This document shows positions 49,739-60,995 of a stretch of DNA of 64,000 nucleotides, one piece after another. The first letter of the stretch is position 1. Each line of letters begins with the position of its first letter. The notes beneath the pieces were generated by a model. The model saw only the letters and a program-made list of their open reading frames with translations. It did not search any database and had not been told where the DNA came from. The stretch comes from Argyresthia goedartella. Its lineage: Eukaryota > Arthropoda > Insecta > Lepidoptera > Argyresthiidae. Where the stretch lies: positions 27,436,001 through 27,500,000 of the forward strand of contig OX463824.1 in assembly GCA_949825045.1 (NCBI GenBank), read 5' to 3'. Both the position numbers and the translations under genes were made by a program.

Positions 49739-52129
49739 GAATTTGCGGCCCAACCATTTGTTGCCCCCCAACCGGAGACGGTGGTGTTACCGATCGCCTC
49801 TGTGCTTGTTTGGGATTTGGCGGGCAACCCAACATACGTTCGCGCCCTATTAGATTCTGGAGCTCAGGGCTGCATTGTATCGAATGATTTAGCAATATGG
49901 TTGGGCCTCAAGGTAAATAGGTATAATAAATCAATACGGGGCGTGGGGAATGTTACGGTTACGAATGTAGTTGGTCAATCGGTGATCACGTTCTCTCCAC
50001 GTTATGACATTTTGACAAAAACATCCGTGCAAGCTTTAGTAATGACGCATGTCATGGGCAGACACCCCTTGGTGAAGTTGAATCCGGCCGTTCGATTCCT
50101 GACATCAGGACTCAAGTTGGCGGATCCCGATTTTGACACTCCAGCCCCGGTCGACCTGCTACTGGGAGCAGACGTTCTGGGTAGGTTTCTGTTGTCGGAT
50201 CGGCGAGTTCTTCAGCCGGACGGGTTGATTGCTGTGGATACTAAGTTTGGTCACGTGATCATGGGTCCGGCATTGCCAATGGTTAGGCCTGCCGAGTCAG
50301 ATGGCATACTTATTGGCTCAGCGTTGTCAGACGTTATCCAACGTTTCTGGGAGATAGAGGAACCTCCCACCGTTCGTCGAGTCGACGCAGACGAAGAAGA
50401 GTGCGAGTTGTTTTACCAGAATAGTACTGGTCGCCTTCGTTCTGGTCGTTTTGTAACTCGACTGCCTTTCAGGGCCGATCAACCGCCACTAGGAGAATCT
50501 AGGAAGATGGCTGAGACGAGATTGATGTCGATGGAGCGTAGGATGACAAGGGACGCCGTATTTAAACAAAAATATGTTGATTTCATGAGGGAGTATGAGT
50601 CGTTAGGACACATGTCGGTATCGGGTGTGGACTGGAGATCTGAGGATCATTGTTTCCTTCCACACCATGCCGTCCTACGAACCCCTACCGGCAAGATTCG
50701 AGTTGTTTTTGATGGGTCAGCACCTACCTCGAACGGGATGTCCCTGAATCAGTGTCTTCATTCGGGACCCAAGTTGAGTCGTGATATTTCGGATATTCTC
50801 ATGAGCTTTCGGAGGCACCAGATTGTATTTGTCGCAGACATTCGGATGATGTTTAGGCAAACGGTAATTCATCCGGCTGACAGAAGGTATCAGTTGATAC
50901 TGTGGCGTGAGTCCACGGCCGAGCCAGTCAAGGTCTATGAGTTAAACACGAACACGTATGGGTTACGGTCTAGCCCGTATTTGGCGATGCGTACCCTGCG
51001 GGAGTTGGCGTCGCGTGACCGTGTGAGCTATCCTAGAGCCGCCGCTATCCTGGAGCAAGATTTGTACGTCGATGACGTCTGCACAGGGCCAGCCAGTGTA
51101 GAGGAAGCTCTGGACCGACGTGACGAGCTCATTCAATTGCTGGAACGAGGCGGCTATGAACTACGCAAGTGGATGTCCAACTCCCCTGATTTGATGGCTG
51201 GTCTCCCAGATGAGTTTCAACAAGACCCGCACGTTTTTGAGAATCCTGACAACCCTAACATGTTGTCAGTGCTTGGAATTCAGTACCGGCCCGTCCATGA
51301 TGAGTTTACCTATCGGGTGGTTTTAGAAACACCGAAGGCCTGGACGAAGCGGTCAGTACTGTCAACGATTGCGAGAACGTTCGACCCGAATGGATGGATT
51401 TCTCCAGTCACCTTTGCTCTCAAATGTTTTATGCAAAGGCTATGGGCGGCTCAGTTGACCTGGGACACCCACCTCTCAGGTGATTTGTTGACTGATTGGA
51501 CGCGAATGTTCACCTCGCTATCGGACATAAATAATGTATCGCTGCCGAGGAAATTGATCCCTGCTGGGGATTACAGGGCAACCCTTCACGGGTTTTGTGA
51601 TGCCTCTGAACGAGGGTTTGCGGCAGCGGTTTATTTGCGAACCATCACCTCCACCGGGGAGGTCGACGTGCGTTTGGTTTTGGCAAAAAGCAAGGTAGCG
51701 CCTATTTGGACAAGGATGACGATTCCAAAACTGGAACTGTCCGGGGCTGCTCTTTTGACCAAACTTTTGAATCACACTCTAACAGTGTTGCGTGGGTCAG
51801 TGGTTTTGGAGGATACGGTGTACGCGTGGACGGACAGCCAGATTGTTTTGTGCTGGCTGAAGGCTTCGGTCCATAACTTAGAGGTTTTTGTTGCGAACCG
51901 TGTCTCCCAGATTGTGTCGTCTGAGGTCCCACTGACCTGGAGACATGTACCAGGAGAATTGAACCCGTCTGATTGTGCATCCAGGGGATGTCGGGCTCCT
52001 GAACTCGTTAGACACCATTTGTGGTGGGGACCACCCTGGCTTGCCAAGAGAGAATCGGACTGGCCCCACAGCAGTAGTATCTTCGGATCATGGCCCCAGA
52101 GCGGCCGTGCATGTTACCCAGAAGGCTGA
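49739..52129 (+). pseudogene. BEL pol, part 1 (protease, RT, RNase H)
   Basis: Open in the gag frame directly after the TAG, with no ATG before about 50041, beyond the protease. Protease: ALLDSGAQGCIVSN and LLLGADVLGRFL. RT: HHAVLRTPTGKIRVVFDGSA, motif A FVADIRMMFRQTVIHP, TYGLRSSPYLAMRTL and motif C LEQDLYVDDVCTG (YVDD, typical of BEL/Pao). RNase H/Pao domain: LHGFCDASERGFAAAVYLR, IPKLELSGAALLTKLL, YAWTDSQIVLCWLK and VPGELNPSDCASRG. The frame closes at 52129 just after a shift near 52075-52110, where the integrase region moves to another frame. Confidence 0.9.
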
Positions 52130-52919
52130 GGACCCTGACGCCGGGTTTCTGCTGGACCGGTATAGCTCACTTGACAAGTTGATAAACGTGTCCACTTGGA
52201 TTAGGAAATTCGCTCGAAATTGTCGTACTCCTCGCGATCAGCGAACGTTGAACCCTATTCTGACTCCGGCAGAGCGAAACGAGTCGCTATTGAATTTGGT
52301 CCGGTTGGTACAGTCCTCGAAGTTTGGGGCAGAATTGGAGATTATACGAAGTGGACGTTCGAAATTGAAGGGAGCCGTCGCGCGTCTCAACCCCTTTGTT
52401 GATTCGACCGGGTTACTTCGGGTAGGAGGAAGATTGCGCAATGCGAATCTGTCGTATTCGGCTCGTCACCCACTTCTGCTCCCCAAGGGGGGACAGTTAG
52501 TTGAATTGCTGGTGACTGATCGTCATATTAAAAACGCGCATGCCGGCTGTAACGCGTTGTTGGCCACGCTTCAGCGGGAGTTTTGGATCTTATCTGCCCG
52601 CCGTGTCATACGGAATATCGTGTTTCGGTGCATGCCTTGTTATCGACTTAAGGCTGCAACGATGCAACCTCTCATGGGGGACTTGCCCCCTGATCGTGTG
52701 AATGAGGTCAGACCGTTTTCAGGTGTTGGTACGGATTTTGCAGGACCGTTTATGGTGAAGAGTTCACGATTGCGTACCGCTAGGCAATACAAGGCGTACC
52801 TATGTGTGTTTGTTTATCCACCAAGGCGGTACATCTCGAGCTCGTTGCTGATCTCTCGACAGAGGCTTTCATTGCTTGTTTGGATAGGTTTGTTTCTCGA
52901 AGGGGACTTCCAACTTTGA
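52100..52919 (+). pseudogene. BEL pol, part 2 (integrase N-terminal region)
   Basis: Shifted frame. Reads RYSSLDKLINVSTWIRKFAR, then LLRVGGRLRNANLSYSARHP, VTDRHIKNAHAGCNALLATL, FWILSARRVIRNIVFRCMPC and VGTDFAGPF, the zinc-binding His-Cys region and first catalytic Asp of the integrase. Coding sense is lost near 52800-52815, inside a TGTGTGTTTGTTTA stretch, where the original frame resumes. Confidence 0.88.
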
Positions 52920-53620
52920 TCCGCTCTGATAACGGCACTAACTACATCGGTGCGGAACGATACTTACGAGAGATAGTCAACTTTTTGAATGTAAATAAAG
53001 TGGATATTGGAACGGCCCTCTCCCGTCGGGGTATACAGTGGACCTTCAGCCCACCGATTTGCCCCCACTGGGGTGGGATTTTTGAGGCCGTAGTTAAGTC
53101 AGCTAAGACGCACTTGGGGCGTATAGTAGGTCAGACCGCGCTGACTTTTGAGGAGCTCGCGACATTGTTTTGTAAGATCGAGGCCGTTCTCAATTCGCGA
53201 CCGTTGTGTCCGCTCAGCTCGGATCCAAATGACCTGGAGGCTCTGACCCCAGGCCATTTCTTGGCAGGACAGCCACTTAACGCGTTGCCCGAGCACCCCT
53301 TCGAGGGAGTGAAATTGTATCGGTTGTCAAGGTATCAGATGTTGCAGCAGTTTACTCAGAATTTCTGGAAGCGTTGGTCGCTCGAGTATCTGCATATCTT
53401 ACAACAGCACCTTAAGTGGACTGACAAAACTAGCCCCCCTAGTGTTGGTGACCTCGTTCTGGTTAAGGATGCTAACCTACCGCCACTACGTTGGCGCAGG
53501 GGGCGCATTGTTAACTTGTTCCCTGGCAAGGACGGGACCCCCCGGTCTGCAGAGGTTCTAGTAGGAGGCTCGGTTCTAAAACGAGCGGTAGCAACGTTGT
53601 CTCGGCTGCCCGTAGATTAG
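52802..53620 (+). pseudogene. BEL pol, part 3 (integrase core and C-terminus)
   Basis: Back in the gag/pol frame: CLSTKAVHLELVADLSTEAF, then RRGLPTLIRSDNGTNYIGAE (second Asp) and CPHWGGIFEAVVKSAKTHLG (catalytic Glu), completing D-D-E with the first Asp in part 2. The C-terminus FWKRWSLEYLHILQQ and VGDLVLVKDANLPPLRWRRG fits the BEL/Pao tail domain (DUF5641 type). Stop at 53620. The two frame changes compensate each other, so they may be paired natural indels or assembly errors. Confidence 0.9.
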
Positions 53621-54375: not shown

Positions 54376-54605
54376 GTCACATAAGGAGTCTTAATAACTT
54401 TCTTTTTACTTAACATATTTTTGTAAATACTTACCTTATTTTCGTGTTTTATTTACGCTAACATGTTTACAAACGATCTATGTAACTGAGTTAAGTAAAT
54501 ACTGAAGCCTGTAACACAGTGTATACTACCACAGGCTTCAGGGTTACTGTAGATTTAAGACATTGTATTATGTTAAAAATAAAGAATTATTATTATTATT
54601 ATTAT

Positions 54606-54718
54606 TAGATTTGTAGCGATATCACGAATCCCACATACCTCAAATGAGTTAATCTTGTATAGTTTTTTACAAATTTCCAAAACTTCAAACTCTCTTTCTC
54701 CTTGACATAGAATAAGTG
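54606..54718 (-). pseudogene. Family-B LINE ORF2 part 2 (endonuclease middle)
   Basis: Short segment between the two insertions. On the minus strand it reads LILCQGEREFEVLEICKKLY, then KINSFEVCGIRDIATN. It continues the RGG of part 1 and runs into LYIFCLYRIP of part 3. RGG(x)LIL...FEVC...YRIP is the usual middle of an APE endonuclease. Confidence 0.88.
54713..54718. repeat. Target duplication of DNA transposon, left copy
   Basis: TAAGTG. Using this copy, the family-B endonuclease reads RGGSLILC without a stop, so it is likely the original sequence. Confidence 0.85.
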
Positions 54719-54730
54719 AGGAGGTAAAAA

Positions 54731-54975
54731 GCAAAACGTGTTTTGTCACAAAAAGTAAAAAAAAATGTGATTGCCATTCCCTCCATTTTATAAATAGCTA
54801 CATTTCTGTGATTTTGTTTCTTTACAAAACGTGTTCTGTCCTATACAAATCTTGGCTAAAAAAACGAACTTACAAGCAAAAAATGTTTTGTCTAAGCTTA
54901 AGTTTCGTTCAGAAAGTGATTTGTCCGTTCCTCCAATCAGAGCGTCAGTTTTCGATGGACAAAACACTTTTTGAA
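54731..54975. repeat. Left subterminal repeats of the DNA transposon
   Basis: Degenerate copies of a CAAAAAGTGTTTTGTCC-like motif: 54731-54748 (AAAACGTGTTTTGTCA), 54825-54842 (CAAAACGTGTTCTGTCCT), 54876-54893 (GCAAAAAATGTTTTGTCT), 54910-54927 (CAGAAAGTGATTTGTCCG) and, inverted, 54957-54975 (GGACAAAACACTTTTTGA). Confidence 0.85.
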
Positions 54976-55084
54976 CTCACTCTGACTGATTGACAACTTT
55001 GAGGTTATAACTTCATTTTATTCATTCTGCAGTGCAATTTCGTAAGTTTCTTATTAAAAACAGTTTGATCAGTTAAAATACCTA

Positions 55085-55625
55085 ATGGACGAAGATGAAA
55101 CTGAAACGGTTCTTGTTCAAGAAGCTAGCGTTGGAAGTAGAAAAAGAAAAGCAACAGGAGGTAAAAGAGCCGCCGAAGCGAAGATGAAAAAGCACTCTGC
55201 TCCTTCTGGCAGTAACGTCTATGTGCCTTGTAATCACAATGATTCTAATAAAAGATTTCAATGCAGCAAGATAACACCGAATATGGATCAAGCAATAAGA
55301 CAAAACTTTTACAAAGTTCCCGACAAGCTTAGACAGGACAGCATAGTTGCTAACATGATCGAATTGACGGTTGTTAAAAGAAGAAGGCCACGGCCCACAG
55401 CACTCAATAAAAAACATAAACCGGGAGGATCGCATAGTTGCAATGTGAAGTACTTTCTCAAACATAAAGGTGATACATTTTTTGTATGTAAAACGCTCTT
55501 CCTCACCGTGTTGCGAATGGGCAGAACAAGGGTCCAAAATATTGTTAAAGAGAAGAATATTGGAAATTCCATTGAAGAAAAGCGAGGAGGAGACAGGATC
55601 ATTCACAAATCTGTTAGAAAGAAGA
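55085..55625 (+). pseudogene. DNA-transposon protein, N-terminal part
   Basis: ATG at 55085 starts MDEDETETVL. A basic region KRKATGGKRAAEAKMKKH may serve as a nuclear localisation or DNA-binding segment. CNHNDSNKRFQC, VVKRRRPRPTA and KHKGDTFFVCKTLFLTVLRM follow, then RTRVQNIVKEK and GGDRIIHKSVRKK at the LINE border (55625). The order of a Cys-containing head, the VC(K)..FL...L motif and a helix-turn-helix-like VQNIVKEK matches a large family of uncharacterised arthropod proteins that I believe is catalogued with a DUF7869 C-terminal domain. The gene continues at 59266 in the same frame: the split codon completes to Asn, then SVRTFIRKLRGKES. No stop precedes the LINE. Confidence 0.75.
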
Positions 55626-58600
55626 TTTTACTTTTCTGTTTCGCTAAATCCTCAGAACAACTTTACTTGTCAATGTCAATCTGCCTGCTGTCATTTCACG
55701 CGACCGGTGTTGTTATTTTTTTTTTTTTTAATACGTTCCGATTTCTGCATCGCTGCGCAGTAGTGGTAACTCTCGCACGTGTTTTGTTCTGTCTTGTTTA
55801 TAGTCTAACGATAAAGTGTGTTGTTTTTGTGTTATTTTTTTTTTTGGTTACTGTTATTATTGTGTGTTTATCTAGATTCCTTTCAGCATTCCTGTGTAGT
55901 TAGGGTCTGGGTCAGTATTTATTTATTTATTTATTAAGTAGTGTAGTTAACTACTCAGTTATTGAGTAGGCAACTTTTATCCATATTTTTTTGTACTACT
56001 GTACCCCAGCATAATTATTTATATTGTATTTATATATTTAAGTAGGTATATTCTTATTTTACATGGATAGTTTATGTAATATTGATAATAGTTTCTTCTC
56101 TTGTTCTTCAACCGACGACTACATTAGTGCGGAGAGTGATAACTCCCTTGTGGAGGAAACACTATCCGCCAAACTGACTTCTGTCTTTGCTGGACTCGAT
56201 AATAATTTTAACATCGTTCACATCAACGCTCAGAGTATCCACACGAGTTACCCGGACCTACTCGAGGCTTTCAGTAGTAAACATGTGGATGGTATACTTG
56301 TATCAGAATCATTTCTTAAACCGACATTACCTTCCACTATGTACTCGCTGCCTGGGTTCCAGCTCTACCGGAACGGCAGAGTTGGCAAAGCTGATGGCGG
56401 GGTGGCTATTTACCTTCGCTCGGATATCCCTTGCAGAGTTGTTAGTGCTTCACTGAGTGAGTACTCCGAATCCGCAGAACATCTCTTCCTTGAAATTTGT
56501 CTTCGCCATAATAAAGTTCTACTCGGTGTTCTCTACAGTCCCTCACTTCACATCGATTATTTCGACTCATTTGAGTCTTTGCTCAGTGAGCTAACTCCTC
56601 TTTATAATGATACCCTCATTCTCGGCGATTTCAATACATGCCTTCTCAAAAACGATTCCCGCTCTGCCAAACTTCAGTCCATTATAAAGTTTTTCAATTT
56701 ACATATTCTTCCCCTCAACGCTACTCATTTCCAACCACATTGTACTCCCTCCCTCCTTGATCTCATGATAGTTTCTAATTTGGAAAAGGTTGCTACACAA
56801 GGACAGTTTAACTCTCCTTTCTCCTATCATGACCTGATTTACCTCTCTTATAAGAGCAAAACCCCCAAGACCAGAGCAAAATTTATCCACACTCGTAGCT
56901 TCAAGGGCATTAATTCTGAATCCCTTAAATCTGATGCCGCGTCGATCGACTGGTCCCCCGTCATCTCCAGTGAGTCCGTTGATGACAAGATCCACCATTT
57001 CAATACAATCATTCTGGGACTGTTCGACAAGCATGCACCGGTCAAGAAGTTCAAGGTAAAACACCTTCCAGCTCCATGGCTCACTGATGCTATTAGGCGT
57101 CTGATGACTAAACGCAACAAAGCCAAATGCCTCTACAAAAAGGAGCCTACAGCCGAAAATCTTCAAATGCCTTCGAAACCAGTGCAATCGCATGTGTCGT
57201 GACGCCAAGCGTCGCCACTCTTTCAGAGCATTGAAAGTTACACTCCGGGTCAAGTATGGAAATTCCTCAAAACGCTTGGTATCGGCAAGTCTCAGGATGA
57301 ATTGATTGGTAATGTTGATCTCAGTGGTCTCAACAAATTCTTCGCGGTCCCCCCTGTCGTCATGAATCCTTTTGTAAAGGATTCCACGCTTTGTCACTTG
57401 CGCACGAAGTCAGCTCCTACCTCCACTCCTTTTGACTTTAGACTTGTCGGAATCAATGCGGTTAAAAAGGCTGTGCTCGCTATTTCCTCTAAAGCTATAG
57501 GATTTGATAATATTTGTTCCAAAATGATCAGCATTGAACTTGACGAGCTCCTTCCTGCTATAACTTACATTATAAACCACTCACTCTCCAGTTTCTCCTT
57601 CCCTAATGTGTGGAAAAAAGCTTTAGTTATCCCTTTACCCAAAACATCTAATCCCTCCTCCTTTAAAGAGTTTCGCCCAATTTCCATCCTGCCAATCCTC
57701 TCCAAAGTCCTTGAATCCATAGTCCATGCTCAGCTCTCCTCCTACCTTTCCTCTAACAAGTTGCTGAACAAATTTCAGTCCGGATTTAGGTCGGGTCACA
57801 GTACCGTAACGGCCTTACTCAAAGTCACTGATGACATTCAGCACGCGATGGATGAGAAACAGCTCTCTGTGATAGCACTTTTGGACTTTAGCAGCGCCTT
57901 TAACTGCGTCGATTTTGACATTCTCGTTGAGATACTGAAGTCCCTGAACGTGTCCTCCGACTCTGCTATCTGGTTTGATTCGTACCTGAGAGGGCGACAG
58001 CAGCGTATCAAGTCGGAGGAGACTTCAACAGAGTGGTGTGACCTCTTTGCGGGAGTGCCCCAAGGTGGTATACTGTCTCCCCTTCATTTCTCTATCTTCA
58101 TTAATTCTATCTCGGATGGACTCTCCTCGTCTTATCATCTTTATGCTGACGATCTCCAGGTTTAACGACATTTTTCTCTTCATGATATGGCCTCAGCCGT
58201 AGAACTGTTAAATGTAGATCTTGATAAAATCAGGGACTGGGCCAATTCTTATGGGCTACTAGTGAACCCTAGTAAGTCTCAGGCTATGATTATTGGTTCC
58301 AGGTACTCCCATAACTCATTACAGCATTTGTCCATTGCTCCTGTAACATATGACGGAACCATAATCTCATATAGCACGAAGGCCAAAAATCTAAGAGTTT
58401 TCTTCGATAACCAACTGTCCTGGTCAGTCCATGTCGGCGAGGTAAGTCGGCGAGTCTTTGCCAGTTTCCACTCTCTCAGGCGTCTTCAAAACTTCCTGCC
58501 TCGTCGGACAAAGATCACGCTCGCTCAGTCTCTCCTCCTCCCCCTGATCGATTACGCAGATGTCTGCTGGGCTAGCGTGACTGAAGAGCAACTGAACAAA

Positions 58601-59257
58601 CTCGAGCGACTTCAAAACCTCGGGATTCGGTTTGTTTTTGGTCTGCGCAAGTTTGACCACGTCTCAGAGTATCGCAGGAAGCTGAAATGGCTCCCGATTC
58701 GTCTTCGCCGGGATTCCCACATCCTCATTTGCCTCTTCAACATTTTATATAATCCTCGCTATCCTGGCTTCTTACGAGATCGTTTCGAATTTCTGTCCCC
58801 GGATAGGCCACGGAGATCGCACACTCGGTCGCTACTTACAACTCCGCAACACAATACTGCCGCCTATGAACATGGGTTCCGACTTCGCGCCATCCAACTC
58901 TGGAACAAACTCCCCAACGCTATTAGAGACAGTCCGTCTCTCAACATATTTAAAAGTCGGTTGAAAGAACACTATCTTTCTCTACCTTATTAAATCTAAG
59001 TAATTTTATTTAGGTTTTTTTTTACATATTTATATACATAATTCTGGTGTTTATGTACATATTGCTAAGTAGTTTATTGTGTTTAATTATTTTGTTTTAT
59101 GTTGTGCACTTAGGTCTACCTGTTGTCAATTATTTCCTTTCCATCCTAGGTTTGCTGGAAGAAATCTTTTTATAGAGATAAGCTCGCCTTTGTCATGTCT
59201 TCTCCATTTTCCACTGTCAAATCTGTTATTTTGTGCAATAAAGTATATTGATTGATA
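55626..59257 (+). mobile_element. Family-A LINE, full-length single-ORF copy
   Basis: Flanked by AAAGAAGA at 55618-55625 and 59258-59265, so both ends are fixed: 3632 bp. 5' UTR 55626-56062 with T-rich runs, one long ORF (56063-58993, broken at two places), and a 3' UTR with CTAGGTTTGCTGGAAGAAAT and GATAAGCTCGCCTTTGTC, then TGTGCAATAAAG and a TATTGATTGAT tail. It has no ORF1 of its own. Its insertion splits the DNA-transposon gene at a Lys-Asn codon pair. Confidence 0.93.
56063..58993 (+). pseudogene. Family-A LINE ORF (endonuclease and RT), two breaks
   Basis: ATG at 56063 (MDSLCNIDNSFFSCSSTDDY). Endonuclease motifs: IVHINAQSIH, ILVSESFL, YRNGRVGKADGGVAIYLRSD, LILGDFNTCLL, SLLDLMIVSN and FSYHDLIYLSY. 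Frame is lost near 57165-57210 (QMPSKPVQSHVS, stop near 57200) and regained by 57302 (GNVDLSGLNKFFAV). RT: KKALVIPLPKTSNPSSFKEF, RPISILPILSKVLES, QSGFRSGHSTVTALLKV, LLDFSSAFNCVDFD, GVPQGGILSP and YHLYADDLQV, where a TAA (58163-58165) replaces the Tyr codon seen in other copies. The same frame reopens and runs to GLRKFDHVSEYRRKL and LKEHYLSLPY with a stop at 58993. Single ORF; CR1/L2-type RT. Confidence 0.92.
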
Positions 59258-59265
59258 AAAGAAGA

Positions 59266-60549
59266 ATAGTGTGAGAACCTTCATAAGAAAGCTCAGAGGA
59301 AAAGAGAGCCACTTTAATAGGAGGCTATCGCAAAGAGTTTATCTTAGTTGTGAGCTAAGTGTAAACAAGCTGCATCAGATCGACAATGAAAGTGTTGAAA
59401 GAGATAAAAAAGTACATATCGGAATGTTTCGTCAGATCTTTGTTAGCGAATTCAACCTCGGCTTTAGGTCTCCGGCCACAGATGTTTGTAACTACTGTTC
59501 TTTGATGAAAAGTAAAATAAAAGAATCTCCAATGGGATCAAAACAAAGGAATGATTATTTAATTGAAAAAAGAATTCACAAACAGAGAGCTAATACTTTC
59601 TACAAGATATTGAAAACAGAAGTACCGAATGCTCATAGTTACTGTTTCGACCTTCAACAAATACAGTCTTTGCCAAAAACCAATATTCAAGAAGCCTTTT
59701 ACAGTCGGCAATTGAACTTCTACAATTTGTGCATATGTGATCTGGAGGGTGTAAAGCCACTATTTTACACTTGGACTGAGGAGCAAGCAGGCAAAGGAAG
59801 CCTAGAGGGATCTTCTGGCCTATTGCATTTTTGCAACACACTACGTTTTCCCACAACCTCATCCGTTTGTTTTGCGATGGATGCGTAGCCCAAAATAAAA
59901 ATAACATTGTTTTGAGAACAGCTATACATTTTCTACAAAAAAAAGGATTGCCCTGTCGATGAAATACAACTGAATTTCCCTGTTCGCGGCCACAGCTATC
60001 TGCCTGCAGATAGAGTGTTTGGCAGAGTTGAAAAATTGCTGAAAAAGGAACCAATAATAATTACAAGGGAAGAGTATTATAACATTTACGCGGAAATAGG
60101 CGAAGTGAAAAAATGTGGAGTTGACTGGACAATAAAAGACACAAAATCACTCCAGAAATACTATAAAGACCTACCTAATATCAGTGACCTGAAACGAATT
60201 TACATCAAAAGGACTGTAACATCTGGAAAATGTTCAGTCAAAGTTAAGGGGTTCCAGAACTTTGTATTTGAATCAGATGAGTCGTTTGTATCGTTAGTTA
60301 AACGTAATGTTAAAAATACTCAACTTTCAAGAGTACATTTGAATGATTTTCCCTTAAGTCATGCTATCACTGCAGAGAAGAAGAAAGACGTGGAGCAACT
60401 GTTGTGTACTGTTTGGAAAGGAGTGGAAAAACAAGGCAGACGATCGCTTTGATTGGTATAGGATTGTGCTGTGCTTACCAACAGCTGAAAATGAACAGGA
60501 AGAAGTTAATTGTGACTGTTTAGAAGAGGAAGTATCCATAAGAATATAA
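59266..60549 (+). pseudogene. DNA-transposon protein, C-terminal part (DDE-like pattern)
   Basis: Reads VRTFIRKLRGKESHFNRRLS, then FVSEFNLGF, TDVCNYCSLMKSK (zinc-like CxxC), NAHSYCFDLQQIQSL and FYSRQLNFYNLCICDLEG. After one-base frame changes in a T run (59828-59832) and an A run (59937-59944) come LIRLFCDGCVAQNKNN and FPVRGHSYLPADRVFGRVEK. A third change near 60405-60415 precedes ADDRFDWYRIVLCLPTAENE and the stop after EEVSIRI. Conserved acids: Asp in FDLQ (codon 59649), Asp in FCDGC (59876), Asp in PADR (60009) and Glu in RVEK (60030), a spacing compatible with an RNase H-fold DDE/D nuclease. No substitution stops were seen, only three single-base shifts, so the copy is not old. Enzymatic function is inferred. 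Confidence 0.72.
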
Positions 60550-60761
60550 TAGAAATACAAGGGAAATAAATAATATTATTGAGAACTATCGCTGTAATTT
60601 TAATTTGAGACTGTTTAGAATAGGTAGAATCCATAAGAATACAATAGAAATACTTACCTATAATTAAGATAAATATTTAATTATAATAAAAACCATTATC
60701 ATTTGATTTAATTATTTTATTTAGTTTCATGCAAAACAATATATGTCCAAGGCCCATCTAT

Positions 60762-60978
60762 GCAAAAAGTGATTTGTCCCTGAAGTTCGTGCAGAAACGT
60801 TTTGTCCAATTTTCAAAAATCAGATTGAATCTAAAAGTAAACGGAACAGTTTTATGCTCCCTAAGATAATATCTTTCATAAAAACTAAACATCCAATTGT
60901 TTTTGCAAGGTATGAGATAATTAGAAGTTTTTTCTGTTTTCCCAACATTTAGAGGTGACGCACAAAACGCTTTTTGCT
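60762..60978. repeat. Right subterminal repeats of the DNA transposon
   Basis: 60762-60780 (GCAAAAAGTGATTTGTCCC), 60791-60807 (GCAGAAACGTTTTGTCC) and, inverted, 60961-60978 (CACAAAACGCTTTTTGC, part of the terminal repeat). A degenerate copy (GCAAAACAATATATGTCC) lies at 60731-60748. Same motif as at the left end. Confidence 0.85.
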
Positions 60979-60989
60979 TTTTACCTCCT

Positions 60990-60995
60990 TAAGTC
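60990..60995. repeat. Target duplication of DNA transposon, right copy
   Basis: TAAGTC, one mismatch to the left copy. The change creates a TGA on the family-B strand. Confidence 0.85.

Follow-up and report, generated by a model that had tools for sequence, protein, structure and literature searches.

Closest described systems and the element in the window

In the portions of the published accounts drawn on here, Sola elements are described as having a DDD transposase, 4-bp target-site duplications, a size of mostly 2-9 kb and terminal inverted repeats (TIRs) of 11-1124 bp (PMC10741241), and Sola2 elements as having 4-bp AWWT duplications (ATAT, AAAT and ATTT), TIRs of 12-21 bp and an enzyme of 888 amino acids (aa) (PMC3627910). 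The core of DDE/D transposases has an RNase H fold, with one aspartate on strand 1, another near strand 4 and a glutamate or aspartate in or close to the helix that comes next (PMC5718144). Here we describe a DNA transposon copy found in a 64,000-nucleotide stretch of the Argyresthia goedartella genome (contig OX463824.1; hereafter the window). This copy, together with a retrotransposon nested in it, spans positions 54718-60990 on the + strand and is flanked on either side by AAGT. The copy is broken, and it is probable that the protein of its family, which carries the domain DUF7869 (Pfam PF25273, an entry that gives no function), is a DDD-type cut-and-paste transposase with a predicted RNase H fold, likely belonging to the Sola2 group. 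That the element is a cut-and-paste DNA transposon with a DDE/D-type transposase, as the original prediction proposed, is well supported at the level of predicted chemistry, because ends shared by multiple copies, target duplications, unoccupied targets, the predicted fold and invariant acidic residues all point to it.

Ends, copies and target sites

The genome (1.11 Gb, 89 contigs) was searched with the left 262 bases of the element, a check suggested by the original prediction, and at least 31 matches were found. The copy set comprised 31 loci (the window and 30 other stretches), of which 27 have both ends. Comparison among the copies shifted the boundaries of the window element outward by one base at each end. 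The matching ends noticed in the window were recovered as inverted repeats (54719-54746 and 60962-60989; 28 nt, 93% complementarity). With the additional bases, the element has inverted ends GAGGAGGTAAAAAGC..., and the left TIR, GAGGAGGTAAAAAGCAAAACG..., spans 54718-54746 on the + strand and the right TIR spans 60962-60990 on the - strand, its terminal base being T in the window and C in the family.

With the boundaries placed at G...C, a perfect 4-bp ANNT duplication was found in 23 of the 27 two-ended copies, while the imperfect ones have one mismatch (two copies), two mismatches (one copy) or four (one copy). The duplication of the window element itself is AAGT (54714-54717 and 60991-60994). 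The distinct perfect sites, in which shared flanks were counted once and five sites from the related families described below were added (one from F1 and two each from F2 and F7), amounted to 24: ATTT (6), ATAT (4), AAAT (4), ACAT (3), AAGT (2), ATCT (2), ACTT (1), AATT (1) and AGTT (1). All of them follow the ANNT pattern, which represents 8.7% of the 4-mers of the window, 15 follow AWWT, and the wider context YANNTR was found in 21/24 on each side. Outside this count were loci with no perfect duplication (L009, L019, L024, L031 and L039), with a single end found (L010, L012, L037 and L038) or with flanks common with L017 and L011 (L026, L034, L035 and L032).

The 6-bp duplication TAAGTG/TAAGTC originally proposed was ruled out, since with the boundaries then used at least one mismatch occurs in every one of the 27 two-ended copies. 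Taken alone, the window would allow a 6-bp reading with one change, as judged from the unoccupied copy L043, which reads AATAAGTGAACC; it is the family rule that decides.

When the two flanks were joined into a 252-base sequence that keeps one AAGT (junction after base 76), 40 places were matched with 93-98% identity; 37 of the matches cover bases 1-252, one covers 1-251 and two start at base 8 or 10, and the junction was crossed in all 40. The empty target foreseen for this element was thus present at many places, indicating that the insertion took place in one copy of a repeat older than the element. The associated claim that removal of the element restores an endonuclease frame was not confirmed as stated, as the long frame of the join that keeps a single AAGT runs into a stop at the junction; therefore the unoccupied paralogues, and not a restored frame, carry the point about transposition.

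Two near-complete copies, L009 (2.64 kb) and L032 (2.58 kb), are free of a retrotransposon that interrupts the window copy; they are 98.1% identical and the frames of both are broken. Identity between the window copy and L009 is 97.2% for one side of the window copy and 95.3% for the other. Seventeen copies are internally deleted, with sizes of 1.0-1.1 kb and a mean pairwise identity of 97.3%, and the remaining ones are longer, rearranged or represented by a single end. The subterminal motifs reported for both ends were borne out in L009, where all seven occurrences of a 16-mer (allowing up to 3 mismatches) lie within 400 bp of the ends (mean 0.045 and maximum 2 in 200 mononucleotide shuffles). 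Likewise, F1 and F2 contain six and three subterminal motifs, each at most 400 bp from an end (shuffle means of 0.01 and 0.01; n = 200, mononucleotide).

The left flank of L036 is common to L031 and its right flank is common to L019, and L019 and L031 have one duplication mismatch each, which points to an exchange between copies or to misassembly. Both flanks are common to L017, L026, L034 and L035 (contigs C30 and C29), which indicates that in these loci the element forms part of a larger repeat.

The DUF7869 protein and its predicted catalytic core

The DUF7869 label given to the window protein was upheld for the intact relatives F1 and F2, which matched PF25273 with E-values of 9.4e-7 and 7.4e-9 (29.0 and 35.9 bits, cut-off 26), but not for the three protein pieces of the broken window gene, for which Pfam returned no DUF7869 match. 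The domain was found at E <= 0.01 in 57 of 58 aligned relatives. The PF25273 model covers F1 only from about residue 350 on, and the first of the conserved aspartates precedes it.

Protein searches recovered 279, 315 and 542 relatives, and the best 120 of each gave 253 proteins in all. The named hosts among the matches listed are butterflies, moths, beetles, true bugs, the orthopteran Anabrus simplex and Hydra vulgaris, a host range that by itself suggests an insect source, probably a moth or butterfly. Residues were counted in the 216 proteins with a length of 500 aa or more, after the 37 shorter ones were dropped. The aspartates D304, D381 and D425 (P0001 numbering) are invariant in 216/216 relatives, and E432 is a glutamate in 215. 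Residues E347, D248, C250, C253 and H280 are also invariant, and the CxxC...H group among them could have a role in zinc binding.

The structure prediction suggested for this protein agreed with a transposase. The two predicted structures contain an RNase H-like core, the fold of DDE/D transposases, in which the three aspartates occupy places corresponding to those of RNase H-type transposases and integrases; D425, the candidate third acid, is the third residue of a helix in both models, and E432, which is nearly invariant too, follows it in the sequence. The likeness to the cores of the Mos1 mariner transposase and retroviral integrase lies in this predicted core, with acids at corresponding places, whereas sequence identity in the rows shown is about 6-17%. 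Moreover, mariner duplicates TA according to the part of the source consulted (PMC5199201), while the DUF7869 elements duplicate ANNT.

A sequence search of the Protein Data Bank (PDB) gave a single, unrelated match (E = 0.59), and no match at E <= 0.001 was found in a viral structure library. A pattern scan matched 4 stretches in viral contigs and 44 in prokaryote genomes, none of which encoded a relative as judged by tblastn. No mention of DUF7869 was found in the literature search, which did not extend to Repbase, where such elements may already be held as Sola2; the mentions of GQNKN were, by their listing, unrelated to transposons.

In the proposed mechanism, binding of the transposase to the ends and subterminal repeats would be followed by excision of the element by means of D304, D381 and D425, with E432 as a conserved neighbour. 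The element would then be joined to a target in which YANNTR is cut with a 4-base stagger, and repair would produce the ANNT duplication.

Related families in the same genome

Using the 277-aa open frame of L009 as query, 140 matches were scored in the genome from 815 candidates. Several of these relatives have stop-free open frames, including one family with 13 matches in 604-aa frames and another with 11 in 577-aa frames. Two copies each were sampled for the families F1, F2 and F7; F9 was dropped prior to counting, its ends not having been reached. The F1 copies (L039 and L040) share 99.5% identity over 2613 bp and contain a 608-aa frame, and the F2 copies (L041 and L042) share 99.93% identity over 2872 bp, L041 having a 552-aa frame that starts from a TTG. 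The two F7 copies, compared at both ends, were 100% identical over 796 bp at one end and 99.86% identical over 699 bp at the other. The left ends are GAGGAGGTAACATTC (F1), GAGTCATATACTATC (F2) and GAGTTGATAAATATC (F7), mirrored as ...CTC at the right; the layout of GAG...CTC ends and ANNT duplications is common to the window family, F1, F2 and F7. The duplications are ATAT and ATTT in F2, ATTT and AAAT in F7, and ATCT in one F1 copy, the other F1 copy (L039) having no target duplication. Open, near-identical copies on several chromosomes, with different flanks, suggest recent movement of these families.

A head-to-tail array containing eight protein matches of a DUF7869 family, with a spacing of about 2.8 kb, was found at G000:C32:29432806-29452957. 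The two junctions read, at 942 and 3771 of L056, are identical, each formed by a right end, CACAGTG and a left end, which suggests that a single joined unit was amplified and that the copies did not insert one by one.

The interrupted gene of the window copy

The transposase gene of the window copy starts with an ATG at 55085, and its 5' part runs on the + strand to 55625, after which it is interrupted by a non-long terminal repeat (non-LTR) retrotransposon of about 3.6 kb, also on the + strand (55626-59257, ends approximate). This interruption of the single gene originally seen between the ends had been missed. The insertion is flanked by the duplication AAAGAAGA (55618-55625 and 59258-59265) and has a reverse transcriptase match (RVT_1, E = 1.5e-28); a weak Exo_endo_phos_2 match (E = 2e-5) fell under the curated cut-off. 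Copy L009 is uninterrupted across this site, and the retrotransposon is absent from it.

The 3' part of the gene (59266-60549, + strand) contains frame changes and ends at a TAA stop. The FDLQ, FCDGC..QNKN and RGHSYLPADRVFGRVE motifs seen in the original prediction are all present, in three different frames. On the + strand, the codon of the first conserved aspartate (FDLQ, D304) is at 59649-59651, that of the second (FCDGC, D381) at 59876-59878 in a different frame, and that of the third (LPAD, D425) at 60009-60011 in a third frame. With the retrotransposon in the gene and the aspartate motifs spread over three frames, no open frame of the window copy covers the complete protein. A 49-bp direct repeat (60510-60558 and 60605-60653, 90% identity) lies at and past the end of the gene. 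The left subterminal repeats occupy 54729-54973, with copies at 54729, 54822, 54874 and 54910 and an inverted one at 54957, and the right subterminal repeat is at 60760-60779 on the + strand.

Elsewhere in the window, the open frames at 49781-53620 resemble, by eye, a BEL/Pao-type retrotransposon polyprotein. Just left of the element, at 54576-54608, an AATAAAG precedes an ATT repeat, an arrangement that resembles the 3' end of a further retrotransposon on the + strand.

Classification and alternative explanations

The cut-and-paste interpretation has its directly observed support in the GAG...CTC ends, the 4-bp ANNT duplications, the unoccupied targets, the internally deleted copies and the relatives with open genes. 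Judged by published descriptions, it is quite probable that the element is a Sola2 member, since Sola2 is reported with 4-bp AWWT duplications and Sola enzymes are described as DDD. As far as the accessible portions of those descriptions go, the likeness includes 4-bp duplications with A and T ends (ATAT, AAAT and ATTT are among the sites of the window family, F1, F2 and F7), TIRs, a likely DDD enzyme, predicted here, and a fitting size (L009 and F1 2.6 kb, F2 3.0 kb, TIRs of about 30 bp within the Sola range). Set beside the same partial descriptions, the TIRs of about 30 bp differ from the published 12-21 bp, and the published Sola2 examples are amoebozoan, the comparison being one of descriptions. 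Three observations fit less well: 9 of the 24 sites are not AWWT, so that the strict pattern applies only in part; the enzymes here have about 550-610 aa, against the 888 aa in the published portion; and in the F5 branch (about 33% identity) two junctions of joined copies read CACAGTG and the right end of a single copy is followed by CACAGTT, making a 5-bp duplication possible in that branch.

An alternative is that the DUF7869 elements form a separate cut-and-paste superfamily with the same chemistry, outside Sola1-3 and the other named ones. The absence of DUF7869 from the literature searched, the lack of a fitting entry among the newly named superfamilies of the four papers listed for them, and the Pfam transposase families found at E <= 0.01 in 0/58 relatives agree with this, but the 4-bp duplications with A and T ends and the likely DDD centre match Sola2 and Sola as published in the portions consulted, and we consider a separate superfamily unlikely. 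Equally doubtful is the broader form of this idea, that DUF7869 marks a large, recently active animal superfamily characterised by GAG...CTC ends, targets of the form YANNTR and a D-D-D centre, unnamed in Pfam and the searchable literature. The original description of the family as under-described applies to its Pfam label, which the literature searched does not mention, while Sola2 is a likelier home than a new superfamily.

The DUF7869 protein could also be a passenger moved by another transposase, given that its transposase role is predicted here from sequence and structure models and that internally deleted copies moved without the whole gene. This is very improbable, as the protein itself is predicted to adopt an RNase H fold and carries invariant acidic residues, and the F1 and F2 copies read contain one long open frame, which leaves little room for another enzyme. 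Ginger and IS3EU are superfamilies with 4-bp or 6-bp duplications, and the 6-bp reading initially made would suit a 6-bp superfamily of this kind; that reading fails in all of the two-ended copies, the ends begin with GAG in all four families read, and the Pfam families listed for the relatives included no integrase, making such a placement the most remote of those considered. A DDD-type transposon of the Sola2 group thus stays the preferred explanation.

Implications for DUF7869 proteins

The element probably adds a member to an already known kind of transposon and also suggests a function for DUF7869. This domain of unknown function, present in hundreds of predicted proteins, gains a candidate role with defined ends, a target rule and candidate catalytic residues, so that there is no need to annotate these proteins as host genes. 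In the parts of two studies consulted, moth Sola elements are counted among the insertions in baculovirus genomes (PMC4735498, PMC6983493); if the Sola2 link is true, the DUF7869 elements would also bear on horizontal transfer.
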